From Leeuwenhoekiella polynyae (lineage in GTDB: Bacteria; Bacteroidota; Bacteroidia; Flavobacteriales; Flavobacteriaceae): a stretch of DNA of 64,000 nucleotides. Under the pieces are notes generated by a model, which saw nothing but the letters and a program-made list of their open reading frames with translations, had not been told where the DNA came from and ran no database searches. Below are positions 13,460 through 44,798 of the stretch, piece after piece (the first letter of the stretch is position 1; each line of letters begins with the position of its first letter). The stretch covers positions 124,001-188,000 of the forward strand of contig NZ_QOVK01000006.1 in NCBI RefSeq assembly GCF_004104075.1. Direction: 5' to 3'. The position numbers and the translations under genes were made by a program.

Positions 13460-14029
13460 ATGGGAAGTAAAATAAACAATAGAGATCAAGAATTAGTGGT
13501 CTCCCTCAAAGCAGGGAACAAGAAGGCTCTTAGTGTGCTCTATGATCACTACTGGAAACCCTTATATATTTCTTCCTATAATTTATTGCACGATAAGGAA
13601 ACCTGCGAAGAAATCATTCAGGATATTTTTATTGACCTCTGGAATAAGCGGGATAAACTTCAAATTCAATCTTCTTTAAAGACTTATCTTTTTGCATGTG
13701 TTCGTTACAAAGTATTTGCAGAATTTAGGAAAAATAAAAATTTACGTTTTGAGCTTTTTGAAAATATAGAAGAGCGTCTTCAAAATACTACCCCGGAAAC
13801 TGAGTTGATCCATAAAGAACTTCGAAAACAGATACGACTCGTAGTAGATAATCTTCCAGATAAATGCCGAACGGTTTATAAATTAAGCAGAAACGAACGT
13901 TTAACGCACAAGGAAATAGCTAAAAAATTGAATATTTCAACAAAAACTGTAGAAAATCACATAACCATTGCTCTTAACGCTCTTCGAGCCTCCTTAGGAA
14001 TTACCTTGTTACTTCTCCTTTTTGAGTAA
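13460..14029 (+). CDS. ECF RNA polymerase sigma factor (FecI/SusC-locus type)
   Basis: A 189-residue extracytoplasmic-function sigma factor. Region 2 spans about residues 25-95 (LYDHYWKPLYISSYNLLHD, then EEIIQDIFIDLWNKR), and region 4 with its helix-turn-helix is near 135-180 (LTHKEIAKKLNISTKTVENHI). A hydrophobic C-terminal tail (ITLLLLLFE) is common in Bacteroidota members. It is followed after 175 nt by a FecR-type anti-sigma gene and then SusC, the usual cell-surface signalling arrangement in which ligand binding by the STN-bearing SusC releases this sigma factor to transcribe the locus. Confidence 0.93.
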   Translation: MGSKINNRDQELVVSLKAGNKKALSVLYDHYWKPLYISSYNLLHDKETCEEIIQDIFIDLWNKRDKLQIQSSLKTYLFACVRYKVFAEFRKNKNLRFELFENIEERLQNTTPETELIHKELRKQIRLVVDNLPDKCRTVYKLSRNERLTHKEIAKKLNISTKTVENHITIALNALRASLGITLLLLLFE

Positions 14030-14204
14030 AATAATTTCTTTTCTTCTCGCCAGAGTCAAACGCTTTACATTGCGATTTCGATGGCTAAAAGTTCATTCTA
14101 CAACGCTTTTTATGTTAAAATTAGTAAATAGTTAAGTTTTTATTAGGGGATAAGTGCATTTTAATACACTTCATATATAAAGGCACTCATTAACTGCTTT
14201 GAGT

Positions 14205-15341
14205 ATGAACAAAGAAGATTTTCAAATTTTAATAAAGAAATACCTGAAAGGTGAAGCAGATCTTACAGAACTACAACGCCTCATTAATTATTATGAGAGT
14301 TTTCAGGAAGAGCATGAGTGGGTTGAGGAATTAGGCTCAGAGGAGACCCTAAAAACTAAAATGTTAATCTCTATCCTAGAGCGTATTGAAGATACTGGAA
14401 AGGTAAAACGTATACCCTTTTATAAGACCAATTGGTTCACCTATGGTGTTGCTGCCTCGTTGGTTTTACTGGTATTCACAACTATTTTTTACAAGGGAAA
14501 TCCTGCTCTCACAACATCTATCCAGAAGAATCAAATTGAAATAGGGAGTTCTAAGGCGACATTGACTCTGGGGAGTGGAGAGGAATTTTTTTTAGCAGGG
14601 GAAAAAGACTTTCTATTCAATACTGCAAAAAGTAACGGAAAAGAACTGATTTATAAAAAGGCACCTGCCTCATCCCCTCAATTATCCTATAATACATTAA
14701 CCATACCACGAGGAGGACAGTTTTATGTAGAGCTTGCAGATGGGACCAAAGTATGGCTTAATTCTGATTCTCAGCTTAAATATCCTGAGTCTTTTGCTAT
14801 AGGAGAACACCGTAAAGTGGAGTTGGTATATGGGGAAGCGTTTTTTGAAGTTTCACCCAGCTCAGCACATAACGGGGCTCGCTTTAAGGTCAATACTAAC
14901 AACCAGGAGGTAGAGGTATTGGGAACCGAATTTAATGTCAAAGCTTATAAAGAGGATGCTAACGTTCTTACTACTCTTATTGAAGGAACTATTCAACTAA
15001 ACACAGTTCATAAGAAAGCAGAGATACTAAAACCAGGGCAGCAATCTGTATTGAACAAGGATAGTGGTAACCTCCTTATCAGTGAGGTTGATACCGACTC
15101 TGAAATCGCTTGGAGAAAAGGATTGTTCAGCTTCAATGATAAATCTTTATATGAAATAATGAAGGTATTGTCCCGGTGGTATGATGTAGATGTGAATTTT
15201 GAGGAGGAAACGTTAAAAGAGGTCACCTTTAATGGACAACTCAAAAAAAATCAAGAATTGTCAAGCATTTTAAAATTAATCAAAAACACCAATTTTATTA
15301 CAGACTATGAGATAAAAAACAACACAATCATTTTAAAATAA
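14205..15341 (+). CDS. FecR-family anti-sigma factor
   Basis: A 378-residue membrane anti-sigma factor. The cytoplasmic N-terminal domain (to about residue 75) is followed by one membrane segment (WFTYGVAASLVLLVFTTIF). The periplasmic FecR domain has FYVELADGTKVWLNSDSQL and VELVYGEAFFEV, and a DUF4974-type C-terminal domain has MKVLSRWYDVDV. The ATG at 14205 is preferred to an in-frame TTG six nt upstream. It sequesters the sigma factor encoded just upstream and receives the signal from the STN domain of the SusC protein downstream. Confidence 0.93.
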   Translation: MNKEDFQILIKKYLKGEADLTELQRLINYYESFQEEHEWVEELGSEETLKTKMLISILERIEDTGKVKRIPFYKTNWFTYGVAASLVLLVFTTIFYKGNPALTTSIQKNQIEIGSSKATLTLGSGEEFFLAGEKDFLFNTAKSNGKELIYKKAPASSPQLSYNTLTIPRGGQFYVELADGTKVWLNSDSQLKYPESFAIGEHRKVELVYGEAFFEVSPSSAHNGARFKVNTNNQEVEVLGTEFNVKAYKEDANVLTTLIEGTIQLNTVHKKAEILKPGQQSVLNKDSGNLLISEVDTDSEIAWRKGLFSFNDKSLYEIMKVLSRWYDVDVNFEEETLKEVTFNGQLKKNQELSSILKLIKNTNFITDYEIKNNTIILK

Positions 15342-15345
15342 AAAA

Positions 15346-15387
15346 AAGGGTAAGGTTCCACTCGCCAAAGTAATACGCCTTACCCTT
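15346..15387 (+). terminator. Hairpin between anti-sigma and susC genes
   Basis: A perfect 10-bp stem, AAGGGTAAGG (15346-15355) with CCTTACCCTT (15378-15387), encloses a 22-nt loop just after the FecR stop codon. It is preceded by an A-run but not followed by a long T-run, so it may be a weak or bidirectional terminator, a processing site or an attenuator separating the regulatory genes from the highly expressed susC. Confidence 0.6.
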
Positions 15388-15441
15388 ATTAATCAATCAT
15401 TAACAGTTAATGAAATTAACTTATTAACGACTTTCAAATTT

Positions 15442-18400
15442 ATGGAAATAAACTTTACTAATGCCCTGCTTATTTTTAAAAGAGGGGTTATCCCTGTCCT
15501 TATGAAAGCTTTCATTTTCTTCTTTTGTATCACTGTTTCTGCTTTTACTCCCAACTCTGCTCTTTCTCAAGATGCTCAGATTATAATTGATGAAGACAAA
15601 ATAGTATCAGTAGATGAAGTTTTTAAATTAATTATGAATCAAACCGATATTGTATTCCTATATCAATCTGATATGTTTAAGGATTACCCTCCCGTCAAAA
15701 TTCATAAGGGAAAAACAAAAGTGTCTAAACTTTTGAAAACATCTATTCCAAAAAATAATTTCGAGTTTTCATTATCCGAAGGAAATACCATTATTATAAG
15801 GACTGTTATTAAGGGTGCTCCCACAAATCAAAACCTGATAGATGTAACTGGAAAAGTTACAGATCAGGACGGCGTGCCTTTACCCGGTACCAACATAACT
15901 GTTCAAGGTAACTCTAAAGGAACCATGACTGATTTGGAGGGTGTTTATGCTTTAAAAGTGGAAACTAATGCAACCTTAAAATTCTCGTTTTTTGGATTTA
16001 AAGATCAAGAAATTGCAGTAGACGGTAGGAAAGTACTAAATGTCGTTCTTCAGCCTAGTGTTGAAAGCCTTGAAGAGGTCGTCATAACGGGCTTGTTTGA
16101 ACGTTCTGAAAAGACGTATACAGGTTCAGCCGTATCTATTTCTCAGGAACAATTGCAGGGTGTAAGCAATGACAACCTGCTGGCTGCTATTCAAGTACTC
16201 GAGCCTTCTTTCCAACTTACAGAAAATATCAACCTGGGCTCTGACCCCAATGTTACTCCTAGTGTGGTCATAAGAGGCGGTAATAGCCTTCCTGATCTAG
16301 CAAATTCAAACAATGGAGATGTTTTTAATTATAACAATGATCCAAATGTTCCTCTTTTCATTTTAAATGGGTTTGAGGTGAACTTGCAACGGATCAATGA
16401 CATTAATATGAACCGTATAAAAAGTGTTACCATCCTTAAAGATGCTGCTGCAACTGCTCTTTATGGTTCACGGGCAGCTAATGGTATTGTGGTTATTGAG
16501 ACTATCACTCCAAAAGGGGGAACTTTTAGGGTGAGTTATACTGGGGGTGCTACTTGGGAAAATCCTGATCTTAGTAGTTATGATCTGCTAAATGCAGAAC
16601 AGAAGCTCGAAATAGAACAAGCGGCGGGAATCTACCGTTCAAACTTTCCTTTTTTCAGGGAAGAGAATGACTTTTTATATAATCAACGCTTAGGCTCTGC
16701 CAGAAGTGGAGTGGATACCGATTGGCTAAAAATACCAGTACGTAATGGTATAGGTACCCAGCAGAATGTTTATATAGATGGGGGCTCTTCAGATAACGTG
16801 CTTTATGGTCTGGGTTTAAATTATCAGCAGAACAGTGGTGCGATGAAAGGCTCCAGTCGGGAAAACCTTTCAGTTAACAGTTATCTCTCTTATCGGGTTA
16901 AAGATGTGCGCTTTCGTAACGAACTGGTTTTTATTTTCAATAAGGCTGTCAACTCTCCCTATGGTTCTTTTCGCAATTATGCGCTTATGAATCCATATTG
17001 GGCTCCTTACGATGAATTTGGAGAAACCAAGTTTTTTTTAGAAAACGTAAGGTCTCCCAATCGGGATGTTTTTTTGAATTCACAAATAAACCCAGTATAT
17101 AATACTACCCTGAATACGGTAGATGAAAGCAAATACCGAAACTTCTCCAATAATTTCGTAGCCGAATGGAAAGCTCTTGACTGGCTACGGTTTACAGGAC
17201 GGTTCTCGTATCAGGTTCAAAATGATGAGAGTGATAATTTTAAACCTGCGCAACATACCGATTTTGCAACGATACCCTTGGAGCGTTTTTACGAGCGTGG
17301 TTCATATCTTAAAGGTTATGGCAGGATGACCCGAATGGATGGTTCTGTTATAGGAAATGTAAACAAATCCTATGAAGAACACGTTTTATATGGTTCAATA
17401 GGTATGAATATTATTGAAAATAAATTTTCAGAAGAATTAATTACTGTTCAGGGATTCCCCAATTCCCGTCTTGATCAATTACTTGCCGGTAATAGGTATC
17501 CTGAAGGTCTTAGTCCTACAGGTGACGAAAGCATAAGCCGTACAGCTGGTTATTTTGCTAATGGAGGCTATGCTTACGATAATAGGTATTTTGCGGATGC
17601 TTCTTACAGGTATGACGGTTCATCCCAATTCGGGAGTAATAAACGATTTGCTCCATTTTGGTCTTTAGGTGCAGGATGGAATGTGCACGAAGAATCCTTT
17701 ATGGAGGATATGAATTCAGTAAACCGTTTGAAGCTGCGTTATTCTTATGGGTATACAGGCTCACAAAACTTTCCCAGTTATATGGGGATTACTACAAGTA
17801 AATATTATACAGACAGAGACTATAGATATAATATAGGTACTTACCTGTTGGGATATGGAAATGACAATTTACAATGGCAGCGTACCATCAAGAGCAATTT
17901 TGGTATGGATCTGGAATTCTTCAATAGAAAACTAAGTCTTACTTTAGATTATTTCTCTGAGAAAACACAAGGTAGTGTAATTAGTGTGACTTCAGCCCCA
18001 TCTACAGGTTTTACTACATATAGTGAGAATATTGGGGACGTTGTCAATAAAGGATGGGAGTTCAAAACCAGATATACTCTTTTAGATGATCCCAATTCCC
18101 GAAACCAGATATCCCTATTTTTAAATGCGTTCCATGTTAATGGTACTATAGAGAAAATTTCTAATGCATTAGAAGAAGCCAACGAGGCTAATGCAAACGC
18201 ATTATCAACAAACCCATTGCCCAGATATGTAGAAGGAAGGTCTACTACAGCCATCTGGGCCGTGCCTTCTGTAGGTATTGACCCTTCAACGGGTAGAGAA
18301 GCCTTTCTCACCCGTGATGGTATGTACACTACTGTATATGATCCTGCAAATCAAATCGTGGCCGGTGATAGCCGTGCAGATATTGAAGGTTCCTTTGGTA

Positions 18401-18843
18401 CCAGTATGGAATATAAAGGGATTGGACTTAATCTCTATTTTGGTTACAGACTAGGTGGACAAACTTACAATCAAACCTTAGTGGAACGCGTTGAAGGAGC
18501 AGATCTTAACTTTAATGTAGATCAGCGGGTATTCAATGACCGCTGGCGACAACCTGGTGATCAGACCTTTTTTAAGGGAGTGATAGACCCCGAAGGCTTT
18601 ACAATTAATTCTACTACTTATGCCAGTACCCGGTTTGTGCAAGATTACAATTGGTTAAATCTCAATAACGCTGCATTTTATTACAGGTTTTCAGAAAAAC
18701 TGAACAAAACACTTGGGATACAGAATACTAAAATCACCTTGTATACCAGTGACGTTTTCTTCCTTTCTTCTGTAAAAAGGGAGCGTGGTCTTGATTACCC
18801 ATACAGCCGCTCCTTTACACTTCAACTTCAAACCTCATTCTAA
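15442..18843 (+). CDS. SusC/RagA-family TonB-linked outer-membrane transporter with STN signalling domain
   Basis: A 1133-residue SusC-type receptor. A long signal peptide (hydrophobic core about 21-36, ending near ALSQ) precedes an STN/secretin-TonB short N-terminal domain (about 45-115; VFKLIMNQTDIVFLYQSDMF). A carboxypeptidase-regulatory-like domain follows (about 133-205; VTGKVTDQDGVPLPGTNITVQG), then a TonB-box-like EEVVITG, the plug (VTILKDAAATALYGSRAANGIVVIET) and a long barrel ending in LQLQTSF. The STN domain matches the sigma/FecR pair upstream. It forms the import channel whose lid is the SusD protein encoded 2 nt downstream. Thioredoxin and peptidase neighbours point to peptide rather than glycan cargo; this is inference. 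Confidence 0.95.
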   Translation: MEINFTNALLIFKRGVIPVLMKAFIFFFCITVSAFTPNSALSQDAQIIIDEDKIVSVDEVFKLIMNQTDIVFLYQSDMFKDYPPVKIHKGKTKVSKLLKTSIPKNNFEFSLSEGNTIIIRTVIKGAPTNQNLIDVTGKVTDQDGVPLPGTNITVQGNSKGTMTDLEGVYALKVETNATLKFSFFGFKDQEIAVDGRKVLNVVLQPSVESLEEVVITGLFERSEKTYTGSAVSISQEQLQGVSNDNLLAAIQVLEPSFQLTENINLGSDPNVTPSVVIRGGNSLPDLANSNNGDVFNYNNDPNVPLFILNGFEVNLQRINDINMNRIKSVTILKDAAATALYGSRAANGIVVIETITPKGGTFRVSYTGGATWENPDLSSYDLLNAEQKLEIEQAAGIYRSNFPFFREENDFLYNQRLGSARSGVDTDWLKIPVRNGIGTQQNVYIDGGSSDNVLYGLGLNYQQNSGAMKGSSRENLSVNSYLSYRVKDVRFRNELVFIFNKAVNSPYGSFRNYALMNPYWAPYDEFGETKFFLENVRSPNRDVFLNSQINPVYNTTLNTVDESKYRNFSNNFVAEWKALDWLRFTGRFSYQVQNDESDNFKPAQHTDFATIPLERFYERGSYLKGYGRMTRMDGSVIGNVNKSYEEHVLYGSIGMNIIENKFSEELITVQGFPNSRLDQLLAGNRYPEGLSPTGDESISRTAGYFANGGYAYDNRYFADASYRYDGSSQFGSNKRFAPFWSLGAGWNVHEESFMEDMNSVNRLKLRYSYGYTGSQNFPSYMGITTSKYYTDRDYRYNIGTYLLGYGNDNLQWQRTIKSNFGMDLEFFNRKLSLTLDYFSEKTQGSVISVTSAPSTGFTTYSENIGDVVNKGWEFKTRYTLLDDPNSRNQISLFLNAFHVNGTIEKISNALEEANEANANALSTNPLPRYVEGRSTTAIWAVPSVGIDPSTGREAFLTRDGMYTTVYDPANQIVAGDSRADIEGSFGTSMEYKGIGLNLYFGYRLGGQTYNQTLVERVEGADLNFNVDQRVFNDRWRQPGDQTFFKGVIDPEGFTINSTTYASTRFVQDYNWLNLNNAAFYYRFSEKLNKTLGIQNTKITLYTSDVFFLSSVKRERGLDYPYSRSFTLQLQTSF

Positions 18844-18845
18844 TT

Positions 18846-20324
18846 ATGAAAAAAACAATAAGTATGTTTAGATCATTCCGTATAGTACAGCTCAGAGTCG
18901 CGACCCTAATTATAGCAATTTTTCTTTTGACTTCTTGTGAAGATTATTTAGATGTGAACCCGGCTTCTGAGGTTAAAGAAGATGAATTATTTGAAGATGA
19001 GCAAGGGTATAAAGATGCGCTTTATGGAGTTTATCAAATGATTTCAGATAAAACACTTTATGGAGATAACCTTACGATGGGTTTCGTTGATGTTTTGGCT
19101 CAACAATACAATACCAGATCTTCTAGTCATATGTTTTATGACGCTGGTCTTTATAGGTATGAAGACAGTGAGGTGGAGGCAAGGATTTTCGATATATGGA
19201 GTTCTATGTACACCGCTATTGCCCAGATCAATTTTATTTTAGAGAATATAGATGCAAACCGGAACGTTTTTTCTTCTGATCAACTCTATAGTACAGTAAA
19301 AGGCGAGGCCTTGAGCTTACGTGCCTTTTTACATTTTGATCTGGTGCGCTTATTTGGTAGTGCTCCCATAACTTCAAGCGGTGCTGCCGCAATACCCTAT
19401 AGAGATGAGTTTTCGGTTAAAAATGAAGACAGATTAAGTGTCAAGGAAATTCTTAAAAAATGTGAGGCCGATTTTAAGGAAGCAGAAGCCCTTCTTGCAC
19501 CTTACCCCGAAATGGATGAAATCCGTAATCCGAAAGGGAGTTTAGGAGGGACTGACAATTTTTTAGCCTTTAGACAAAATCGTATGAATCTTTGGGCAGT
19601 TAAGGGGTTACTTGCCCGACTCTATCTCTATAAAGGAGATCAATCCCAGGCATTTTTATATGCAAATGAAGTAATAGACAGTGGATATTTCAGGTTTATG
19701 ACTCAGACAGAATTAAATACGACAGGGGAATTCAATGACCGTACCTTCTCTTATGAACATGTATTTTCATTAAGTGTATACGATCTAAGAGAGACCTCAG
19801 ATGAATACTTCAGATTTAGCACTGGTGAATCAGGATCAACAGACACAAAGTTGCTAGTGGAAGAAGACAAGGTTAAGAATGTTTATGAGGTTTCACAGGG
19901 GTATAGCAGTGATCCGCGTTACGATAAATTGTGGCAGTTTAGCCAATCAATTTTTGTTCATGCTAAGTTTTGGCAAGAAGATGAACTCTCCCCACTACTG
20001 AAAAACCTAGTTCCCGTTGTAAGGCTGAGTGAAATGTATTATATCGCCGCAGAAAGTACCCAGAACCCAGGAACTGCTGTGAAATATATCAATGAGGTAA
20101 GGCAGGCCAGATTTATCCCTGCGCTTCCAGATGATCTCAGCGCAGAAGTTCTGCAAAACGAGATTTTTAAAGAATACCGAAAAGAATTCTACAGTGAAGG
20201 ACAGCTTTTCTATTACTATAAACGTACCGATGCAGAAAATATAATTGATTCACAAATTTCTCCCGTAACCGACGAAGAATACGTATTACCTATTCCCTTA
20301 CGGGAAGTCGAGTTTGGAGGTTAA
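18846..20324 (+). CDS. SusD/RagB-family outer-membrane lipoprotein
   Basis: A 492-residue SusD homologue. The lipoprotein signal ends at Cys31 (FLLTSCEDYLDVNP). The family start DYLDVNPASEVKEDELFED is clear, as are RAFLHFDLVRLFG in the TPR-like core and the C-terminal VRLSEMYYIAAE and EYRKEFYSEGQLFYYYKR motifs. It binds the substrate on the cell surface and closes over the SusC channel. It starts 2 nt after susC, and its stop overlaps the long form of the next ORF. Confidence 0.94.
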   Translation: MKKTISMFRSFRIVQLRVATLIIAIFLLTSCEDYLDVNPASEVKEDELFEDEQGYKDALYGVYQMISDKTLYGDNLTMGFVDVLAQQYNTRSSSHMFYDAGLYRYEDSEVEARIFDIWSSMYTAIAQINFILENIDANRNVFSSDQLYSTVKGEALSLRAFLHFDLVRLFGSAPITSSGAAAIPYRDEFSVKNEDRLSVKEILKKCEADFKEAEALLAPYPEMDEIRNPKGSLGGTDNFLAFRQNRMNLWAVKGLLARLYLYKGDQSQAFLYANEVIDSGYFRFMTQTELNTTGEFNDRTFSYEHVFSLSVYDLRETSDEYFRFSTGESGSTDTKLLVEEDKVKNVYEVSQGYSSDPRYDKLWQFSQSIFVHAKFWQEDELSPLLKNLVPVVRLSEMYYIAAESTQNPGTAVKYINEVRQARFIPALPDDLSAEVLQNEIFKEYRKEFYSEGQLFYYYKRTDAENIIDSQISPVTDEEYVLPIPLREVEFGG

Positions 20325-20359
20325 TGTACCAATCAATTATCAACTTTAAAAACTTAAAA

Positions 20360-25679: not shown

Positions 25680-25773
25680 AATAAACCAATAAAATAATAA
25701 TGGGCCATTTATAAATAGCGTATTCATTTACTCGATTCTATAAAATGCACTCATGCTTAATTAATAATTGATT

Positions 25774-26220
25774 ATGAAATATACAATTTTATGCCTCGCC
25801 TTATTTTTCTTTGGGGTTGGACAGTCTCAAATTTTAGAACCCGTCAAGTGGTCAACCTCCGCAGAAAAAGTCTCGAATAAGGAGTATGTCTTAGTAGCAA
25901 CAGCCACTATAGAGCCTCACTGGCACCTCTATTCTCAAAATGTCCCTGAAGATGGTCCTGTACCAACCGTATTTACCTTTATAAACAACGGCAGTTTTCT
26001 CAAGAAAGGGAACACCTTAGAAGATAAAGGTCTAACGGTCAATGATCCCGTTTTTGAAATGCAGATTAAATATTTTGAAAACAAGGCCACCTTTAGACAA
26101 ACCGTCAGATTAAAAAATGAAACTCCTTTATCCATTAAGGGAAAGGTTGAGTTCATGGTTTGTGATGACGCAAGATGCCTGCCACCAACGGAAGTAGATT
26201 TAGTATTTACGCTAAAATAA
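25774..26220 (+). CDS. Free-standing DsbD N-terminal (alpha) domain protein
   Basis: A 148-residue exported protein consisting of a signal peptide (MKYTILCLALFFFGVGQSQ) and one DsbD-alpha-type immunoglobulin-like domain: EPHWHLYSQNVPEDGP, then VNDPVFEMQIKYFE and VCDDARCLPPTEVDLVF. The redox pair is Cys130 and Cys135. It lacks the membrane and thioredoxin domains of DsbD. The ATG at 25774 is preferred to the in-frame TTG at 25768. It ends 11 nt before the probable start of a full DsbD gene whose own alpha domain is closely similar but lacks both cysteines, so this protein may supply the missing redox step in trans. Confidence 0.85.
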   Translation: MKYTILCLALFFFGVGQSQILEPVKWSTSAEKVSNKEYVLVATATIEPHWHLYSQNVPEDGPVPTVFTFINNGSFLKKGNTLEDKGLTVNDPVFEMQIKYFENKATFRQTVRLKNETPLSIKGKVEFMVCDDARCLPPTEVDLVFTLK

Positions 26221-26231
26221 ATCAGGGCACA

Positions 26232-35883: not shown

Positions 35884-37914
35884 TCAGTTTTCAGATTTTA
35901 GCATATCAATAACAGCATTCATTTCATCTTTGAGCTCATCAGGATTGCCCGAGTAGCCTTCAGATGTAAACCGTATTTTTCCATCTTTGATAATTACTTT
36001 TCTGGGGATGCCGCTCGAGTTGAACAGGGAAGCGAATTTTGAAAAGGTCTTGGTGTTTCTTTGGGCGTTTTCAGTTTTCTTATCAAATAAAACCGTCATA
36101 GTATCTAAATGATACTTTTTAAAGTAGGAGGCTGTAACTTCCTTATAGTCTTTTGAAGTCTCACTGGTATTGATAAAATAAAAAGCTACCGTTTTGTCAT
36201 TTTGATAATTCTCAACGAGCTGTTGCATTGCCGGAAATGATTTTTTGCAAGGCGCACACCAGTTTGCCCAGAAATCCAGGACGATGATTTTATCTTCTGA
36301 AGGGATTCTAACCTCTTTTCCTTTTTGGACTTCAAAAATCAGTTCTGGAGATTCTTCATCAATAAGGTCGCTTTGGATCCGGTCTTTAAGCCCTTTGTTT
36401 TTAAAACTGTTTAAATACGAATCAAAGCCGGCATCGGTTCCTTTTTTTACGGTATAAGTTTCTTTTAAAAGTTCTTTCAATTCTGGAGTGAGCGCTTGGT
36501 TTGCAGCGGCAACTTCCAGTTGCTGCGTTACTTCTTTATGTTCCTGAAGCAAGGCTTTAATGTAGATTTCATTGAGCTCAGAATCAGTGTATTTAGCTTC
36601 TGAAGAAAGATAATCCCCATATTTGATTACCTCACTGGGCTTATTCAGTTCGGCCGAGATACGCATTTGTACCCTTAGTTTGCGATTTAATTGTTCTTGT
36701 GCATTATTCAGTGCCTGTTGCGGCGATAAGTAGATCCCCTGTACATAGGATGCATCATCAAGTTTGGCAAGCAGTTCTGCGATGATAGCCTGAGATAATT
36801 CGTTTAAAACCGGAAAGGGAACAGCCTTATAATGATAGGCCTTAGAAATGGTAAAGTGATAGCCTTCGATCAGGTTTGCAAAATTCAGTTGAGGCAAGAG
36901 CGTCTTCAGTTTATCATATTCTTCGTTATTAAAATAGTCTTCAAGTAAGAAATTATAGATAGTCCTGTAGAAAAAAGGTTGCCCTCCCTCTAATTCGGTA
37001 ATCGGATATTTCTTAAGAAATGCTTCAAACTGCTTTACCTTCGCGCTGTGATCTGTAACCTGAGATGCAATTTGAAAGGATTTTAACTGTGCAGTACGTC
37101 CTTTTGGAAAGCGTTTTAAGAGTACCTCGCGGAGGGAATCTGCACGTTTTTCATCCTTTAGGTCAAACGCATACAGATTGTACATTTTAGCATATTGATC
37201 TTCAGTCAGGTCTGTATACGTGTTTAAAAATTGACGGGCAAGAACGTGGGCAATAGTATCAAATTGTTCAGGCTTTCTTATTTTTGCGATTTGAAAATAG
37301 GTTTCTACAAAACGCGGAAAATTTTCCGGATGTTCCTGAATTTCTTTTTTTACCCAAAATTCCGAAGCTTCATCTGAGGCGCTAAACTCCCTGAAATACT
37401 GTCCAAAATCAGTATTAAAATTAGAATTTCTAAAGGTGCCCCAGGCAACATTACTTCCGGGTATTTTTTGGTTTTCGGAGTCTACGGTAGTAAAAATATA
37501 GCCCTGATCCTGATTGGTGTCAGAGATTATACCTTCAGAAGTGTTTGCATAAAATTTGAAGGCCAAGAAAGCACAATCCTTGGGGATTTGATAGGAACAA
37601 GCATAAACAGCTCCTTTCTGTGTGATTTCAATATCATCCAGCTTCCACGTATAATTTGCATATATATACACCAGACCTTTTACATCCTTAACGTTTTCAA
37701 GACCATTTTTTGGGACATAGGTAAATTCTGCCTTAGTCCCCACTTTGGGTGGGTTTTTCAACCCCGGTAACAATTCAGATTCCTTACTGGATGGTTCTGC
37801 AGACAAGCTGATTTGCATTGTGCCACTTGTTCCGTTATTCGTTGTTTTTTGGCAAAAAATAATGCCGCTATTTAGCGCTGCTACTACAAGCAGCGCTAGT
37901 GTGAGTTTTTTCAT
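35884..37914 (-). CDS. Thioredoxin-family protein with long helical N-terminal region
   Basis: A 676-residue exported protein (signal peptide about 1-20, LLVVAALNSGIIFCQ). A beta-rich N-terminal part is followed by a long helical region (about 180-500). The C-terminal thioredoxin domain has Cys553-Ala-Pro-Cys556 in FWANWCAPCKKSFP and a later SGIPRKVIIKDG. It is a larger counterpart of the 24249-25679 protein in the first locus; both have CKKSFP after the active site. It lies between the SusD gene and the S9 peptidase gene, consistent with reduction of substrate disulfides before cleavage. Confidence 0.88.
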   Translation of the reverse strand: MKKLTLALLVVAALNSGIIFCQKTTNNGTSGTMQISLSAEPSSKESELLPGLKNPPKVGTKAEFTYVPKNGLENVKDVKGLVYIYANYTWKLDDIEITQKGAVYACSYQIPKDCAFLAFKFYANTSEGIISDTNQDQGYIFTTVDSENQKIPGSNVAWGTFRNSNFNTDFGQYFREFSASDEASEFWVKKEIQEHPENFPRFVETYFQIAKIRKPEQFDTIAHVLARQFLNTYTDLTEDQYAKMYNLYAFDLKDEKRADSLREVLLKRFPKGRTAQLKSFQIASQVTDHSAKVKQFEAFLKKYPITELEGGQPFFYRTIYNFLLEDYFNNEEYDKLKTLLPQLNFANLIEGYHFTISKAYHYKAVPFPVLNELSQAIIAELLAKLDDASYVQGIYLSPQQALNNAQEQLNRKLRVQMRISAELNKPSEVIKYGDYLSSEAKYTDSELNEIYIKALLQEHKEVTQQLEVAAANQALTPELKELLKETYTVKKGTDAGFDSYLNSFKNKGLKDRIQSDLIDEESPELIFEVQKGKEVRIPSEDKIIVLDFWANWCAPCKKSFPAMQQLVENYQNDKTVAFYFINTSETSKDYKEVTASYFKKYHLDTMTVLFDKKTENAQRNTKTFSKFASLFNSSGIPRKVIIKDGKIRFTSEGYSGNPDELKDEMNAVIDMLKSEN

Positions 37915-37929: not shown

Positions 37930-39285
37930 TTATTTACCTAATTCCGGATTCAGGTCTATATAATTCTGGAAAATAGGAAAGACATAACCATCAGAATTAG
38001 GTTCTAATACATAGGTTTCCCCTTTAAAAATACGGGTAAAGGTTTGCTGATATTCAGAATCAAGATTTAAACGCCGTTGATCAAACCAGCTAAATCCCCT
38101 GCCTATAAGTTCTTTGGAACGCTCAGTGATGACATAATCCATAACTTCCTCAGGTGAGCTTGAGCTGAGCTCATAAGCACTTCCGCTCTGATACCGTTTT
38201 TCCCGTAGATCATTAAGATATTTTAATGCATTCTCAAGATCGCCAGATCTGGCGTATGCTTCTGCTGCAATTAAATGCATTTCGGGTACCGAAGGCCCTA
38301 CGTTTACACCGGTGTTAAAATTGTAGTTCGAAATACCAAAAGCCCTACCAGTAAAACTGGGATAGACATTAGCTCCATCAATCGTATAGTAATCATAACG
38401 CAGGTCATCATCTTCAAAACTCATAATCAGATCTTCAGATAGCGGAGCGTTATGATAGCTAAAGAGTAGTGTTTTTGATAAGAGAATCTCTGGGTTTTCA
38501 AATAAAGGAGGGTAATCATAACCTGAGGAAAAGGCGTTGAGATCTATTAAAGACCCCTCTAAATCCAGCGCTTCCAGCGAATTATCAAGCGCTAGATCAT
38601 AATTACCCATATAAAGATAGGTTCTGGCCAAAATAGCATAAGCCGCTGCCTTTGTGGGCAGGGTATTAAATTCTGCATTAACCTGAATAGAATTATCGAG
38701 TGATTTTTGAAGATCTGAAAGAATCAGCTCATAGACCTCAGCAACACTAGTGCGATCCAACTCAGTATACAGGCTGGGAGTAGTTAAAAGAGGAACAGCC
38801 TTTGCGGTGTTAGTACCCTGTGGGTCAAATTGAGGCGCATAGGTATTTACCAGTTGTAAATAAGCAAAGGCACGGTGTACGTAGGCTTCGGCAAGGATTT
38901 CCTGCTTTTCAGATGCATCACCTCTCTCGCTTCCCATAACACCATCTATTACGACGTTACTGTAATAAATAGCTTTATACAGATTATTCCAGTCAGCATC
39001 ACTTTGGGACTCATTATAAATGGCGTCTTTCCAGGTATAGGCATTAGCCCAAATGGGAGATACTATATCCTGATACGTTTCGGGAAATTGAATTTCGGTA
39101 CTTGAAATTAAATAAATACCTCCCGAGTTTTGAAAATTACTTTGATTATTTACCAGCGATCGGTAATCTGCAGTATACTTTAGTACCCGTGTATTGCCTA
39201 CAGGGTCTATTTCTACGTAATCACTACAACCAGTGATCATAAGCGTAGCCAATAAAATGAATATACTATATATAGGAGTTTTCAT
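37930..39285 (-). CDS. SusD/RagB-family outer-membrane lipoprotein (second locus)
   Basis: A 451-residue SusD homologue with lipidation cysteine 20 (LMITGCSDYVEIDP). Family blocks are AYVHRAFAYLQLVNTYAP, AILARTYLYMGNYDLAL (TPR-like), VPEMHLIAAEAYARSG, and ERSKELIGRGFSWFDQRRL near the end. It is shorter than its counterpart at 18846-20324 and not a recent copy of it. It starts 15 nt after the susC stop and pairs with that transporter. Confidence 0.93.
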   Translation of the reverse strand: MKTPIYSIFILLATLMITGCSDYVEIDPVGNTRVLKYTADYRSLVNNQSNFQNSGGIYLISSTEIQFPETYQDIVSPIWANAYTWKDAIYNESQSDADWNNLYKAIYYSNVVIDGVMGSERGDASEKQEILAEAYVHRAFAYLQLVNTYAPQFDPQGTNTAKAVPLLTTPSLYTELDRTSVAEVYELILSDLQKSLDNSIQVNAEFNTLPTKAAAYAILARTYLYMGNYDLALDNSLEALDLEGSLIDLNAFSSGYDYPPLFENPEILLSKTLLFSYHNAPLSEDLIMSFEDDDLRYDYYTIDGANVYPSFTGRAFGISNYNFNTGVNVGPSVPEMHLIAAEAYARSGDLENALKYLNDLREKRYQSGSAYELSSSSPEEVMDYVITERSKELIGRGFSWFDQRRLNLDSEYQQTFTRIFKGETYVLEPNSDGYVFPIFQNYIDLNPELGK

Positions 39286-39300: not shown

Positions 39301-42300
39301 TTAGAAACTTAGACTTACACTAAGGGTGTAATTACGCTCTGGAGGAAGGGTGCTGTAATTATTAATCGACCGGTATAACGGATCGATTTTTTGATCATTT
39401 GCCCTCCATAAAATACCCAGGTTGCGCACAGCAAGGTTAAGGCTCGCAGCTTTGAAGAAGCTATCCCCAAAGAAAGAAGCCGGGAGGTTATAACCAAGTC
39501 CTATTTGTTGCAGGCGGATGTGATCTGCAGATAATACATTGATAGATGCATTTTTAAACCTGTTGATACTGTTGAAATTAAGATTGCTTAATCCGGGAAC
39601 ATTGGTAAAGTTTTCGTCACCGGGATTCATCCAGCGTTCCGCGGCAAGCCCCTCTCTGCTTACCGGTCCATAGTGAATTCCTGAAAAGGAAGGATAGTTT
39701 GATAAAACCTGATTTCTGAATACGTGACCCATATAATAGGTCATTTGAATAGTAAGCGACCAATTTTTGTAGTTGAAATTGTTAAAAAACCCACCGGAAT
39801 AGGGTGCACGGGTGGTACCCATATAAACCAGGTCTTCCGGATTAACGTCTACTATGCCTTGATCTGAGTCAATGATATCCCCTGCAGCATTATAGATTTG
39901 AGACTGCCCATTTTCATCGAGACCTGCCCAGTTGTAAGCATAAAGACTGGTTAAGGGTTTGTTGAGAATAGGTGCTGCACCAAAGTATTGATTAGTGGTG
40001 GTTACTTCAAACCTGGAGTCTGTAACTTCATTGGTATTATACCCAAAATTGAAAGTGCTTGACCAACTCAGGTCACCATTGAGTATAATGCCTGTAATAC
40101 CCAAGTCTATGCCACTTCCCTTAAGGGTTCCTGTGTTATAGGTTAGGAATGAAAAGCCGTAGGTAGGATTAAAAGGAACATTGGTAAGAATGTCTAATGA
40201 TTTTTTAAAATAGACATCTACATTACCCGAAATTCTTCCGTTGAATAAGCCGTAGTCAAGTCCAAAGTTCCAAGATTTTGTGGTTTCCCATTTTAATTCT
40301 GCATTTTCTGGAGTGGAAATAGTTCCTACAGGCAATTGGGTGTTAAAATCTGTTGAAGTATTTATAATAGGATAGATGTTACCCAACCCTCCCGGAGGCG
40401 TACTGCCGGTTTTACCATAAGTTGCTCGCAGGCTTAAAACACTCAGCCAGTCTGTATCTTCGAGAAAGTTTTCTTTAGAAATATCCCATTTCAAACCCGT
40501 AGACCATAAAGGCATGATCCGGTTTCTGCTTGAAGCTCCCAAAAGGTTGTAATCATCAAGTCGCAAACTTCCTGAAACATGATATTTATTTCGAAAGGAA
40601 TAAGAGCCTAAACTGTAATAAGAAGCAAAACGATTTAAGTATTTTCCAATACTATTGTCAGAACTCCCTATAAATGTATCCCACCCATATACAGTTGTAT
40701 AATATTCGGTAGGGTTTACAGCTTTAAAAGTATTGGAATCTAAATCATAACCATAAACAGACCGGGCTGCCCTTTCATTTTTCTCTTCCCGGGTTTCCAA
40801 TCCTATTAAGAAATTTAAATTGTGTTGCCCATTAAAAACTTTGTCAACAGTTGCCTGAAGCCTTAGGGATTGATCTTCGGTAACGTCATAGGAGCTGTAG
40901 CGATAGGCACCTAAAGGAATTCCATAGACCAGTCCACCCGCTTGAGTATAACTTGTGGCTTCGTTAATCAAATTGCGGGTATAATAGCTTTCCTGCTGGT
41001 TGATTTGCTCAACTTCATCCCGTATTTTATTATACCTGCCGGAAGCAGAAACACGTAACCAGTTTGTAAGATTTGCAGTCAGTTTTGCCGTAAATCTAAG
41101 GGCATTACCGGTGGTGATATTGTTATTATAATTTAGCTCGTCAAGATAATTATACGTCCATGGAAGGTAGCCTTTACTGGTTAGATCATCTATTACGGCT
41201 GGGGTAAATTTTAAATATCGGTCTATACCGTTTCCATTCGCATCTGCAAGGAGGTCATAAGGCCGCAACGATGAATTAGAAGCAAGGGACAAGGCTTCGT
41301 TGGATGTGGTGTTTAAATTGTATTTAGATTTTACGTAATTAACACCGGTTTCAAGGGTAAGATAATCCCTGATATCGAAACTATTATTTAAAGTAACGTT
41401 ATACGACTTAGAAGAGTTGCTTTTCATAGCCCCTTTATCTTGATTATAACCTAAGGAAGCATAGTAGGTATTGTTTGTTCCCCCTCCAGAGACCGAGAAG
41501 TCATATTGCTGCGTGATCTTATTTTGCAAAAGATAATTGTTAACCTGACTTGAATTATCACGAGAAGCGAGTTCAGCGATAATGGCATCACGTTCTTCAA
41601 GGCTTATTTCTCCGCGTTTTTCCTGAAAATAAGCAGTTTGTAAGGCGCTTGGGTTAGCGGCCTGCCAGTTTGAGGAATTGTCTACTATGTAATTCTTTTC
41701 AAGCATTTCTAACTCCAGGTCCACGTATTGTGCGCTGTTCATTTCCCTCAGTTTATCTAAGCTGATTTTATCACTTATGGTTACGGTTGAACTTATATTG
41801 ACAACCGGGGCAGATTTTTTTCCTTTTTTAGTTTCGATCACGATCACCCCGTTTGCAGCTCTGGAACCCCAAATCGCAGTTGCTGCTGCATCTTTCAATA
41901 CAGTTAGGCTTTCAATATCATCGGGGTTTAAATAGCTGAGTATGGCATAACCCGGGTTAGCACGGCTTTTAGTAAATGAAAATTCTTCCGTAGACATAGG
42001 GAACCCGTCAATGACAATAAGAGGAGGCGTAAGCGAATAGCTGTTTGTTCCCCTTATTTCTATGTTACCTGTACGTGGATTTACATTTACGCCGGGTATT
42101 TTTCCTTCCAGGCGCTCATTTAAATCTATAGTGGGAACTTTTTGTAATTCCTCCTTTGAAACCGATGCAAAAGATCCTGTTGAACGTTCTTTAGGAATTT
42201 TAGTATACCCATTTGATTCGGCAGCGGTTACGGTGACTGCATTTAATTGCTCGATGTCTTCTTTCAATGAAATGTTAATGACCGTTCTCCTGTCAACAGG

Positions 42301-42867
42301 TACTTTAAGTTTTTTTAATCCCAGATAGCTAAACAGAAGTGTATCTGTAGCTTGGACTGTAAGCCTGTATTTCCCGCCATCACGGGTAATATCCCATTTC
42401 TTTTTATGAAGAACTTCTACTGTAGCCCCAGAGATGGTATTGCCAAACTCATCAGATACAGAACCGGTTAAGGTATAGTCTTCCTGTTGTATCTTGGAAT
42501 CCCTTTCAAATCTGGGCTTAATGGTGATGAGATTTTTATCTGCAAAAGCCGATTTAAAATCGTTCCCAATGATTTTTGGAAGAAGTTCTGAAATAGCAAT
42601 ATCAGCTTCCTGTATCGAGATGATTTTATCGCTATTGAAGAGATCACTGCTGTAAAAGAAATCTACACCTGTTTGTTGCGTTATCAATTTCAGGACTTCT
42701 GAAATGGGTTTCCTTTCTACATCGATGCTTACCTTTTGTGAAAAGGCAAATAGGGATAAGTTGAGAAAGAAGATTGATGTGAAAAGGGATTTTCTCATAA
42801 CAACCATAATTTTTGCTGAAATACTATTTGTAGTATGCCCACACGAAGCAGGTAGTATTTTTTTCAT
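39301..42867 (-). CDS. SusC/RagA-family TonB-linked transporter with STN domain (second locus)
   Basis: An 1188-residue SusC protein. A long N-terminal extension and signal peptide (core about 28-42, ending FAFSQ) precede the STN domain (about 45-110; ISEVLKLITQQTGVDFFYSSDLF). The carboxypeptidase-like domain (LTGSVSDEFGNTISGATVEV), a TonB-box-like NAVTVTA, the plug (LTVLKDAAATAIWGSRAANG) and the barrel follow. The start may instead be one of the internal ATGs (MVVMRKSLF) directly before the hydrophobic core. The STN domain implies control by the FecR and sigma genes encoded just upstream. Confidence 0.94.
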   Translation of the reverse strand: MKKILPASCGHTTNSISAKIMVVMRKSLFTSIFFLNLSLFAFSQKVSIDVERKPISEVLKLITQQTGVDFFYSSDLFNSDKIISIQEADIAISELLPKIIGNDFKSAFADKNLITIKPRFERDSKIQQEDYTLTGSVSDEFGNTISGATVEVLHKKKWDITRDGGKYRLTVQATDTLLFSYLGLKKLKVPVDRRTVINISLKEDIEQLNAVTVTAAESNGYTKIPKERSTGSFASVSKEELQKVPTIDLNERLEGKIPGVNVNPRTGNIEIRGTNSYSLTPPLIVIDGFPMSTEEFSFTKSRANPGYAILSYLNPDDIESLTVLKDAAATAIWGSRAANGVIVIETKKGKKSAPVVNISSTVTISDKISLDKLREMNSAQYVDLELEMLEKNYIVDNSSNWQAANPSALQTAYFQEKRGEISLEERDAIIAELASRDNSSQVNNYLLQNKITQQYDFSVSGGGTNNTYYASLGYNQDKGAMKSNSSKSYNVTLNNSFDIRDYLTLETGVNYVKSKYNLNTTSNEALSLASNSSLRPYDLLADANGNGIDRYLKFTPAVIDDLTSKGYLPWTYNYLDELNYNNNITTGNALRFTAKLTANLTNWLRVSASGRYNKIRDEVEQINQQESYYTRNLINEATSYTQAGGLVYGIPLGAYRYSSYDVTEDQSLRLQATVDKVFNGQHNLNFLIGLETREEKNERAARSVYGYDLDSNTFKAVNPTEYYTTVYGWDTFIGSSDNSIGKYLNRFASYYSLGSYSFRNKYHVSGSLRLDDYNLLGASSRNRIMPLWSTGLKWDISKENFLEDTDWLSVLSLRATYGKTGSTPPGGLGNIYPIINTSTDFNTQLPVGTISTPENAELKWETTKSWNFGLDYGLFNGRISGNVDVYFKKSLDILTNVPFNPTYGFSFLTYNTGTLKGSGIDLGITGIILNGDLSWSSTFNFGYNTNEVTDSRFEVTTTNQYFGAAPILNKPLTSLYAYNWAGLDENGQSQIYNAAGDIIDSDQGIVDVNPEDLVYMGTTRAPYSGGFFNNFNYKNWSLTIQMTYYMGHVFRNQVLSNYPSFSGIHYGPVSREGLAAERWMNPGDENFTNVPGLSNLNFNSINRFKNASINVLSADHIRLQQIGLGYNLPASFFGDSFFKAASLNLAVRNLGILWRANDQKIDPLYRSINNYSTLPPERNYTLSVSLSF

Positions 42868-42949
42868 ACTTTTAAATGTTTAGTTTATTAAAAAATGGAT
42901 TTGATGACTAGACTTAATTACCGGGAAATGTTGGCGCATTTTCCGGTTT

Positions 42950-44152
42950 CTATTTTTTGGTAATATTTAGTTCATAATGATCGTTACTTTTTTGGGTTAA
43001 ACTGTAATTAATAGTTGATGTTAGCTTGATGATTTCAAGCAACTCTACAAGGGTTTTATTTTTATCGATCACTCCGGTAAAGCGTACTTTATGGAGATCA
43101 CGATCCTTAAATGTGAATTGAAAATCATACCAGCGTGCCATTCGCATAAGAATTTGATCCAGCGGGACTTTTTCAAAATAGAATTTGCCGTCCTTCCAGG
43201 CCGAAGCGATTGTAGTATTTACATCGGTTACTTCAAGCTTATTGGTGTCTTTATACAAGGTAGCTTGTTCTCCGGGTTTAAGAACAATCGGGGGATCACT
43301 TGCATAGTCTTCTATATTTGAAAGTTGAACTTTTCCTTCAGTTAGCGTGACGGCATTAAAAGGATCTTCAGCATAAGCACTTACGTTAAACTGTGTACCC
43401 AGTACATTGATGTCTGTAAACGCTGTGCTAACTATAAAGGGTTTCTCCCGGTTTTTGGCTACTTCAAAGTAGGCCTCTCCCTTTAACACGACTTTTCGGG
43501 TATTTCCTATAAATGAAACCGGATAATACAAGTAAGACTCAGAATTCAACCAAACACGTGTGCCATCTGCAAGACTCAAGTTATACACGCCACCTCTGGG
43601 AACGAACAGAGTATTATACGACTCAGCAGAATTGTTTTTACCTGCTGAGTAAATCAGGGTATTGTTTAAGTTAACTATAGAACTGTCCTTTTCGATTATC
43701 GCATTTTGTGTGTTTTCAAGAGTAACTCGATCTCCATTACTTAAAATAAGAATAGCTTTTTTTGAGCCGGGTGCAAGATCTGTAACTGGATTAAGAGGAA
43801 GCTCATTCTCGGTTCTGGTCACAACAAAAATGCCGGAGCCTATCCCAATGGCCAGGATTAAAATAGCGGCGTACTTATAATACCTGTTGAAAAACGAAGT
43901 TTTGGGATTTTCGTAGGCTTTAATTCGTTTTAAAACCCTTTGATAAGGGGTATTGGTATCTATTGAGGACGACAAATCTTGCCTTGCTCTAAATTTGACA
44001 CTATTAAAAGGCTGAAGCTTTTTATTGGCTTTTGAACTTTCAGCCAATAACCTATCTAAGCCTTTTTGTTCCTCTTGAGAAATGATGTTTAAGCGGCTTT
44101 TGGCTATAAGTTTAGCCAACTCAAACACTTTTTTATAACCTTCAATTTTCAT
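42950..44152 (-). CDS. FecR-family anti-sigma factor (second locus)
   Basis: A 400-residue anti-sigma factor with a cytoplasmic N-terminal region, one membrane helix (about 91-108; AAILILAIGIGSGIFVV), the FecR domain (YNLSLADGTRVWLNSESYL, then VVLKGEAYFEV) and a DUF4974-like C-terminus (MARWYDFQFTF). It lies between the sigma gene (about 100 nt upstream) and the susC gene (82 nt downstream), the standard trans-envelope signalling order. Confidence 0.93.
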   Translation of the reverse strand: MKIEGYKKVFELAKLIAKSRLNIISQEEQKGLDRLLAESSKANKKLQPFNSVKFRARQDLSSSIDTNTPYQRVLKRIKAYENPKTSFFNRYYKYAAILILAIGIGSGIFVVTRTENELPLNPVTDLAPGSKKAILILSNGDRVTLENTQNAIIEKDSSIVNLNNTLIYSAGKNNSAESYNTLFVPRGGVYNLSLADGTRVWLNSESYLYYPVSFIGNTRKVVLKGEAYFEVAKNREKPFIVSTAFTDINVLGTQFNVSAYAEDPFNAVTLTEGKVQLSNIEDYASDPPIVLKPGEQATLYKDTNKLEVTDVNTTIASAWKDGKFYFEKVPLDQILMRMARWYDFQFTFKDRDLHKVRFTGVIDKNKTLVELLEIIKLTSTINYSLTQKSNDHYELNITKK

Positions 44153-44249
44153 TTAAACTCTTTAACTTTAAGATAGCTTAACATCTTCTTTACAGTTATA
44201 AGAGTCTAAAAGCCGAAAATGGGTGGAAGGTTTTTAACTTTTTTTTTGA

Positions 44250-44798
44250 TTAATTCGAACCAATTAAGAGTAAAAACAAAATAAAAGGATGGTTTTTGAG
44301 CTTTTCCTTTAGTAATTTGATAGCTCGTGTTCGTTGAGATTTTACAGTATTGACAGATATGTTAAGTCTGGATGCGATTTCCTTATATTTTAAACCTTCT
44401 ATTACCGATAATTCAAAAATCTCTTTGCAGCCTTCTGGCAACTGATTTAATTGTTCAATTAAAATAGCGTAAACTTCTTCTTCTAAAATTTTGTCGTCAA
44501 AATCTTCATCCGAATCCGGAGTAAGTTCTTCATGGAGTGCTATTTTCTCTTTCTCTTTATTTACAATGCGGTAGGCATCATTACGAACCATCGCATAGAG
44601 ATACGACTTAATGTTTATTACATTTTGAAATTTTTCCCTGTCCCGCCAAAGTTGGAACATGGTATTCTCAACGATGTCCTCGGCAGTTTGAGTATCAGAA
44701 ACAATTTCTTTAGCGTAGGTTAAAAGACGCGGGTATAGTTTATGAAAGATATTCTGGAAGTATGACTCATCAATAGTATTTAAACCTTTTCTGTTCAG
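44250..44798 (-). CDS. ECF sigma factor, second locus; no ordinary start codon before region 2
   Basis: The ATG at 44658-44660 gives only 136 residues (MFQLWRDREKF onward) and would remove the front of sigma region 2. Translation continues open upstream to 44810 and encodes a good region 2: SYFQNIFHKLYPRLLTYAKE, then AEDIVENTMFQLW. Region 4 is intact (LKYKEIASRLNISVNTVKSQR). No in-frame ATG, GTG or TTG exists between the stop at 44811-44813 and the conserved part; CTG at 44796-44798 is the best placed candidate and is used here as a provisional start. Either a non-standard start is used, or the gene has lost its start and the second Sus locus may be poorly inducible. Confidence 0.75.
   Translation of the reverse strand: MNRKGLNTIDESYFQNIFHKLYPRLLTYAKEIVSDTQTAEDIVENTMFQLWRDREKFQNVINIKSYLYAMVRNDAYRIVNKEKEKIALHEELTPDSDEDFDDKILEEEVYAILIEQLNQLPEGCKEIFELSVIEGLKYKEIASRLNISVNTVKSQRTRAIKLLKEKLKNHPFILFLLLIGSN

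Follow-up and report, generated by a model that had tools for sequence, protein, structure and literature searches.

The window analysed here is a 64,000-nucleotide stretch of the Leeuwenhoekiella polynyae genome (contig NZ_QOVK01000006.1, positions 124,001 to 188,000) that carries two divergent SusCD loci, locus 1 (13460-31290, forward strand) and locus 2 (33294-44798, reverse strand). Each combines an extracytoplasmic function (ECF) sigma factor, a FecR-type anti-sigma factor and a SusC-SusD pair with thioredoxin-fold proteins and a peptidase (Table 1). Redox genes are a recurrent partner of such importers, standing in the operon of 34 of 47 loci built around close SusD relatives and of 2 of 29 built around distant ones (p 1e-8, with the loci taken as independent). 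The reading favoured here, to which an even chance is given, is that both loci encode SusCD importers of oligopeptides with a dedicated periplasmic reductase, whose action would be followed by cutting by a peptidase. Many SusCD pairs have neither linked carbohydrate enzymes nor a known cargo, and a recurrent thiol-reductase partner offers a biochemical clue to the cargo of one such group.

The gene assignments made in an earlier note on this DNA (ECF sigma factor, FecR, SusC, SusD, thioredoxin-fold proteins, DsbD, peptidases and a pyridoxal phosphate (PLP) enzyme) were borne out by Pfam and NCBIfam. In both loci a SusC of the TIGR04056 subfamily is followed by a SusD lipoprotein, the arrangement of a SusCD-type importer. 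As had been claimed, none of the 18 proteins encoded here matched a glycoside hydrolase in Pfam; carbohydrate-active enzyme families as a whole gave no match in the same scan, and the loci are not classed as polysaccharide utilization loci. The three exported thioredoxin-fold proteins that had been described all show the thioredoxin fold, an intact WCxPC motif (WCGPC in TlpA1 and TlpA2, WCAPC in TlpA3) and the downstream xxP (cis-Pro) motif of TlpA/ResA-type reductases, their export being judged by eye. The catalytic motifs of the M16 and S9 peptidases and the CVNC pair of the DsbD gamma domain are likewise intact: H79, E82, H83 and E160 of M16, which make up the HxxEH motif and the distal Glu, are invariant, and the GxSxGG nucleophile motif of S9 reads GHSFGG at residue 708, with a candidate terminal His at 830. 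ECF and FecR are present in both loci. The signalling STN domain that had been attributed to both SusC proteins gave a weak match in SusC 2 (19.3 bits, against a Pfam cut-off of 28.4) and none in SusC 1 at E 0.001; what stands is that STN domains are likely, mostly because both proteins carry an N-terminal extension of about 130 residues before the carboxypeptidase-like domain.

Linkage of SusCD importers to redox genes

In the 4.79-Mb source genome, 52 SusC proteins score above cut-off, 12 of them with a FecR gene at most 3 kb upstream; a 13th FecR adjoins a SusC below cut-off. A gene of AhpC/TSA fold (TlpA) lies at most 8 kb downstream on the same strand of 6 of the 12 FecR-SusC genes and of none of the 40 others (p 4.5e-5), and about 0.25 of 12 would be expected from random placement. 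Leaving out L034 (L-numbers denote fetched locus stretches), where opposite-strand genes intervene, gives 5 of 12 (p 0.0003). M16 genes are found within 12 kb of 3 of the 12 FecR-SusC genes against 1 of the 40 others (p 0.034), and SusCD loci encode 4 of the genome's 6 M16 proteins. S9 as a special partner of FecR loci was unsupported: within 8 kb it accompanies 2 of the 12 FecR-SusC genes, one of these two being S33-like (L022), and 4 of the 40 others. The S9 family of the window also follows SusD in 4 of the 20 distant SusCD loci and at one other place in the source genome. Other FecR-SusC loci of the same genome with a peptidase encode a DUF4953/5117 metzincin (L041), a Peptidase_Mx1 (L047) and an S33-type hydrolase together with TlpA and DsbD (L022). 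The metzincin locus is flanked by two small open reading frames (ORFs) with identical first 45 residues (L041:653-1186 and 11862-12398).

For the comparison across genomes, 395 genomes of the class were searched with SusD 1 and SusD 2, at most about three and four candidates, respectively, being scored per genome, which leaves the lists incomplete. Up to 20 kb was taken around the best non-own matches listed, namely 36 locus-2-like loci (at least 96.7 bits with SusD 2) and 11 locus-1-like loci (at least 179.8 bits with SusD 1), and around weaker matches that served as controls: 20 for locus 2 (44.7-56.6 bits, hand-picked before their neighbours were seen) and, for locus 1, 9 of the 13 weaker matches listed. 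Twenty genomes contribute the 36 loci, and 14 of these genomes have at least one redox locus. Two pairs overlap (L117 with L119, and control L159 with L174), and contig ends shorten L118, L122 and L124 among the 36 and the controls L166, L181, L183 and L184. Neighbours were labelled by profiles grown on the window genes and a few relatives, which may miss other peptidase families. Genes on the same strand with gaps below 700 bases were counted as an operon, and TlpA, DsbD, alpha or related thioredoxin-fold genes as redox genes. Fisher tests assume independent loci, and independence is not full.

Redox genes stand in the operon of 25 of the 36 locus-2-like loci against 2 of 20 distant ones, and of 9 of the 11 locus-1-like loci against none of 9. 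The earlier note had named the absence of thioredoxin genes from most orthologous loci as grounds for giving up its reading; with the pooled 34 of 47 given above, the linkage is kept in most of the homologous loci examined, and that ground falls away. FecR alone fails to explain it, because 16 of the 23 locus-2-like operons without FecR still have redox genes, as do 9 of the 13 with FecR; both redox-positive controls carry FecR. The same linkage appears from the side of the peptidase. Seven SusCD-linked M16 proteins were used as queries, and 80 of their 563 relatives were kept. Of these, 50 had 5 kb or more of flank on either side; among them, redox genes accompany 8 of the 12 with a same-strand SusC or SusD and 3 of the 38 others. 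Chance neighbourhood was ruled out by the counts in the source genome, the random expectation and the cross-genome comparison. A second architecture, common among relatives of SusD 2, has TlpA directly upstream of SusC-SusD in an operon without FecR (L116, L118, L121-L123, L127, L132, L139, L141, L142 and L144).

Taken together, a redox gene or a peptidase accompanies 35 of the 36 locus-2-like loci against 8 of 20 distant ones. The peptidases are diverse: across SusCD loci they comprise M16, S9, S41, S33-like, HtrA-like, retropepsin-like Asp, DUF4953/5117 metzincin and Mx1 families, with a metzincin, M16, S41 or S33-type enzyme in locus-2-like loci and HtrA-like (L173, L176), retropepsin-like (L175, L177) and M16 (L175) enzymes in locus-1-like ones. 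Both a redox gene and a peptidase are found in the window loci and a few relatives (e.g. L115, L149, L175). The order SusC-SusD-DUF4843-PKD_2 is kept in all 11 locus-1-like loci, so that both lipoproteins hold the same place throughout. In one of these loci (L178) an ABC-2 exporter follows PKD_2 and redox genes are missing. ABC-2 type exporter genes inside SusCD-DUF4843 or SusCD-M16 loci were seen at L178:10322-15773 (two genes by Pfam) and, by reading, at L191:6673-9896 and L196:15600-18988.

A split DsbD and a SufS-like enzyme in locus 1

Reductive pathways that join DsbD to TlpA-type proteins are known in DsbD, CcdA/ResA and ScsB types. The window DsbD resembles them in its cysteine-bearing beta and gamma domains and its exported WCxPC neighbours, and differs from them in its alpha domain. 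At the C-x4-C site the fused alpha reads S-DTDQ-Y and is cysteine-free, whereas the free alpha, which had been regarded as a spare copy, reads C-DDAR-C. The free copy is thus not spare, and the alpha pair lies on a separate 150-residue protein instead of being united with the beta and gamma pairs. C-x4-C precedes the PP motif of alpha in 17 other distinct full-length DsbD genes of the fetched loci (two duplicate rows were merged, and L024 has two free alpha proteins, one of which is off the motif pattern).

The sister species G533 has the identical split arrangement, with a cysteine-free fused alpha and a free alpha bearing the pair; a sequencing error is ruled out, since G533 carries the same residues. 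Relative to G533, the fused alpha has a nonsynonymous rate (dN) of 0.049 and a synonymous rate (dS) of 0.18 (ratio 0.27), and the remainder of DsbD has a dN of 0.043 and a dS of 0.41 (ratio 0.11); the two dN values are alike, so the fused alpha is still conserved. Locus 1 is under purifying selection, with a dN/dS of 0.05-0.18 for its 11 genes in the same comparison. Free alpha proteins also occur beside a cysteine-bearing DsbD (L024, L210, L218), and the free copy alone is therefore not unusual. As the free alpha appears to be the only redox-competent alpha of this pair, electron transfer from gamma to TlpA would either need it or bypass the alpha step, and a cysteine-free fused alpha next to a separate alpha amounts to a natural experiment on the electron hand-over of DsbD.

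The PLP gene had been placed between the loci; it belongs instead with locus 1, because it lies on the same strand, 203 base pairs (bp) behind M16. Its cysteine-desulfurase-like assignment holds. The protein, in which no signal peptide was recognised by eye, has the class-V aminotransferase fold and keeps H145, K251, C394, R389 and R430, all invariant across ten sequences, including the alignment with E. coli SufS. These residues are presumably the substrate-assisting His, the PLP Lys, the persulfide Cys of the mobile loop and the two substrate Arg. In these active-site residues the enzyme is like SufS-type desulfurases; it differs from them in its identity to SufS (26%), its length of 493 residues and scores below the cut-offs of all 13 NCBIfam models listed. 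Its likeliest activity would be that of a cysteine-sulfur lyase.

M16, DsbD and PLP genes stand together in nine other loci, from Wocania, Flavivirga, Seonamhaeicola (two), Bizionia, Tenacibaculum, an uncultured Flavobacteriaceae and two further genomes (L149, L301). Their order there is M16-DsbD-PLP, with extra ORFs before PLP in Wocania and Tenacibaculum, and that of the window is DsbD-M16-PLP. SusC or SusD was not recognised in all nine stretches: neither was seen in L201, where the contig starts inside the cluster, and no complete form in L206, L210 and L218. In two of these stretches the cassette is followed by what reads as a LysR-like regulator and histidine-utilisation-like enzymes (L201:10737-16300 and L218:13464-19163).

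Proposed mechanism and competing explanations

Regulation, peptide cargo, disulfide content, electron flow and sulfur use are proposed as follows. The ECF sigma factor and FecR would switch a locus on when SusC is occupied, and SusC-SusD would import oligopeptides, helped in locus 1 by the DUF4843 and PKD_2 lipoproteins. Periplasmic TlpA-type reductases would open disulfides or mixed disulfides of the imported material and would be recharged by DsbD, with electrons passing from cytosolic thioredoxin through the transmembrane domain and gamma to the free alpha (25768-26220) and on to TlpA; the free alpha is placed in this chain because the fused alpha has no cysteines. M16 and S9 would cut the opened peptides, and the SufS-like enzyme may take sulfur from released cysteine. 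As the target of the reductases, cargo is favoured over periplasmic enzymes or a general role, and disulfide peptides are favoured as that cargo because they are the simplest one to account for both a reductase and a peptidase accompanying related SusCD pairs. Service in the folding of the importers is unlikely, because SusC, SusD, DUF4843 and PKD_2 hold only 1-2 cysteines each (one of them the presumed lipid site in the lipoproteins).

BT2261-2264 of Bacteroides thetaiotaomicron, which contains two further lipoproteins, and RagAB of Porphyromonas gingivalis are the closest known systems. They share with the window loci the SusC-SusD outer-membrane importer, which might bind peptides here as well; the window loci differ in adding ECF/FecR, thiol reductases, DsbD (locus 1) and peptidases. 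Structures of both with oligopeptide ligands are described in the accessible part of PMC7782687, and what is accessible of two further reports, one of them on an iron stimulon (PMC10434189; PMC10132118), bears on these loci only by citing peptide SusCD pairs. In a Muricauda population, single SusC genes adjoin peptidases and have been proposed to serve the use of oligo- or polypeptides (PMC7029141, accessible part); SusC stands there without SusD, and thiol reductases, DsbD and a PLP enzyme go unmentioned in the same text. A SusCD locus type with TlpA or M16 was not found described in searches of open-licence PubMed Central papers, which is weak evidence. It is put forward tentatively, and is itself rather doubtful, that there is a widespread undescribed Bacteroidota class of SusCD systems that import disulfide peptides with a dedicated reductase, in which the split DsbD and PLP desulfuration of locus 1 form an organic-sulfur route. 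If true, this would be a dedicated route to organic sulfur from disulfide-rich protein.

Several results weigh against peptide import followed by reduction and cutting. Redox genes and peptidases avoid each other among the locus-2-like loci (p 3.7e-5): 4 have both, 21 redox genes only, 10 peptidases only and 1 neither, which counts against a reduce-then-cut pathway within a single locus. The redox-plus-peptidase theme of the earlier note therefore stands in part, in that redox genes recur with SusCD and peptidases are the other recurrent partner, but the two meet in one locus in only 4 of 36. The split suggests that a single dedicated processing enzyme, either a reductase or a peptidase, takes the position next to SusCD. 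Some loci have other partners: one locus-1-like locus (L174) has a glycoside hydrolase family 2 (GH2) beta-galactosidase behind PKD_2 and no redox genes, and three FecR-SusC loci of the source genome have a MauG peroxidase (L017), a calcineurin phosphoesterase (L020) or a GtaA-like protein (L032) as partner and neither a redox gene nor a recognised peptidase.

The importers themselves add to these points. By sequence, neither SusC is specially close to BT2264 or RagA, proximity being no strict criterion: the best PDB match of SusC 1 is 8aa4 (184.7 bits, against 147 for RagA and 77 for BT2264) and that of SusC 2 is 8ypu (280 bits, against 187 and 95), and the best match of SusD 2 is among 8ypt/8ypu. 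A further difference from BT2261-64 and RagAB is that single-sequence and profile searches of the PDB gave no structurally solved relative for DUF4843 or PKD_2, and hence no tie to known accessory lipoproteins; the AlphaFold model of PKD_2 is poor (mean predicted local distance difference test score, pLDDT, 49.9). The PLP enzyme is widespread, its family being found in 180 of 397 Flavobacteriaceae genomes at E 1e-60. Eight upstream contexts of its relatives were drawn from a long match list (L302 and L219 being one locus). Linkage to SusCD, TlpA or M16-DsbD is present in four, including the Bizionia locus already named, and missing in the other four. In the congeners G533 and G713 the gene had no match at E 1e-60; the absence from G533 may be an assembly gap, because the first 50 bp of the gene stand at a contig end. 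The PLP gene is thus a recurrent but not obligate member of such loci.

Among the alternatives, one would have TlpA and DsbD protect or mature the periplasmic enzymes of the locus itself or handle oxidative damage, with peptide cargo left untouched. The cysteines of the peptidases (2 in M16, 4 in S9) and the 21 of 36 loci in which redox genes adjoin SusCD without a recognised peptidase fit such a role, but M16, SusC and SusD offer few cysteines for three reductases, and 10 of the 14 locus-2-like loci with a peptidase have no redox genes, the opposite of what it predicts; it is considered unlikely. Uptake of a metal- or haem-bound ligand such as a siderophore or metallophore, with thiol reductases for release, appears less probable still. 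FecR/ECF/STN control is typical of metal and haem uptake systems, the FecR domains are weakly similar to ferric-citrate FecR, and the FecR-SusC locus with the MauG-family enzyme (L017) encodes a di-haem peroxidase. ECF/FecR in Bacteroidota also governs glycan SusCD loci, however; several peptidase families recur in the loci, and no siderophore, haem or metal-uptake family was matched in those of the window.

Uptake of a glycan or glycoprotein, with incidental reductases, would account for the GH2 enzyme in the place of TlpA in L174; this is 1 locus of 11, its operon is without FecR and neither window locus has a glycoside hydrolase match, which makes the explanation improbable. Very improbable is a role in the uptake of, immunity to or exchange of a modified or ribosomal peptide (bacteriocin or lasso peptide) in place of food peptides, to which ABC-2 exporter genes in related loci (recognised by Pfam in L178 and by reading in L191-L193 and L196) and a weak match of S9 to the lasso isopeptidase model NF033523 point, but S9 scores 61.6 bits against a cut-off of 400, which leaves it outside that family, and no maturase or ABC exporter family was matched in the window loci, where small precursor ORFs were not searched for.

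Gene inventory and genomic setting

Genes, order and families that had been given for both loci were borne out by Pfam and NCBIfam, with the addition in locus 1 of the DUF4843 and PKD_2 lipoproteins, which had been left unnamed. The gene at the end of locus 2 needs comment. The 136-residue ORF of ECF sigma factor 2 scores 100.5 bits with TIGR02985, below the cut-off of 126.4; no ATG, GTG or TTG start exists upstream of 44660, and the frame stays open beyond. A sigma profile built here aligns with the extended frame from model position 7, so that the end at 44798 originally given is reasonable and the start codon uncertain. The AlphaFold model of TlpA3 is poor (mean pLDDT 49.7).

Table 1. Features of the two SusCD loci in the window, with strand and the basis of each assignment
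Feature	Coordinates	Strand	Basis
ECF sigma factor 1 (Sig70_bacteroi1)	13460..14029	+	TIGR02985 144.9 bits, above cut-off
FecR-type anti-sigma factor 1	14199..15341	+	PF04773, PF16344
SusC 1, long N-terminal extension (probably STN-like)	15442..18843	+	TIGR04056 568 bits
SusD 1 lipoprotein	18846..20324	+	PF14322, PF07980
DUF4843 lipoprotein, probable surface-exposed partner	20324..21094	+	PF16132 111.8 bits
PKD_2-family lipoprotein, probable surface-exposed partner	21134..22603	+	PF16407 90.3 bits
TlpA1: DUF4369 and thioredoxin fold, WCGPC, putative lipoprotein	22812..23969	+	PF00578, PF14289; motif
TlpA2: TPR-like repeats and thioredoxin fold, WCGPC, export judged from N-terminus	24249..25679	+	PF00578, TPR matches; motif
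Free DsbD alpha domain, 150 residues, redox pair C-DDAR-C	25768..26220	+	PF11412; motif
DsbD: fused alpha without cysteines; transmembrane beta and gamma (CVNC) with cysteines	26175..28181	+	PF02683, PF13899; motifs
M16 metallopeptidase, HFLEH and distal Glu intact, export judged from N-terminus	28495..31290	+	PF00675, PF05193; motif
SufS-like PLP enzyme, 493 residues, cytosolic as judged from absent signal peptide	31493..32974	+	PF00266; alignment with E. coli SufS
S9 prolyl-oligopeptidase-family serine peptidase, GHSFGG intact, export judged from N-terminus	33294..35882	-	PF00326 94.7 bits; motif
TlpA3, 676 residues: beta N-terminus, helical-repeat middle, thioredoxin fold, WCAPC	35884..37914	-	PF00085, PF13905; outline from low-confidence model
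SusD 2 lipoprotein	37930..39285	-	PF14322, PF07980
SusC 2, STN-like N-terminus	39301..42867	-	TIGR04056 563 bits; weak STN
FecR-type anti-sigma factor 2	42950..44152	-	PF04773, PF16344
ECF sigma factor 2, start codon uncertain	44250..44798	-	136-residue ORF: TIGR02937 71.1 bits, above cut-off; longer open frame

The sister species G533 is collinear with window positions 2-12596 at 85-91%, without locus 1 behind, and window positions 13070-31543 align in one piece, at 90%, to another of its contigs, which ends there. Two further G533 contigs match the Fic-integrase part (49.6-52.5 kb) and the flank to its right (52.4-64 kb). The two congeners thus share locus 1 as a single unit, with different surroundings in each. 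Its membership of the fucose-type cluster to its left (0.8-12.4 kb) is ruled out, as G533 has that cluster without locus 1 and locus 1 on another contig. The cluster itself (847-12413) appears to serve L-fucose use, with an alpha-L-fucosidase, dehydrogenases, an amidohydrolase, a major facilitator superfamily transporter and a mutarotase by Pfam and, by reading, another fucosidase-like protein, two AraC-type regulators and a protein of enolase type.

On the right side of locus 2, the 3' end of tRNA-Pro recurs as a 15-bp direct repeat (45251-45265 and 52439-52453). The roughly 7.2 kb between the copies contain genes for an integrase (50982-52226), a Fic protein and an M43 peptidase that ends in a type IX secretion system tail, together with an endonuclease-family ORF. 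Judged from these features, the segment 45251-52453 is probably a small tRNA-borne island. The SusCD loci are unlikely to be part of it, since the repeat at 45251 puts the island right of locus 2. Two dispersed intergenic repeats were also seen, one of 74 bp at 9031-9104, whose copies, full or partial, number more than 20 in G533 and a further five in the stretches of the source genome examined, and a second at 12757-12857, between the break of synteny with G533 and locus 1.

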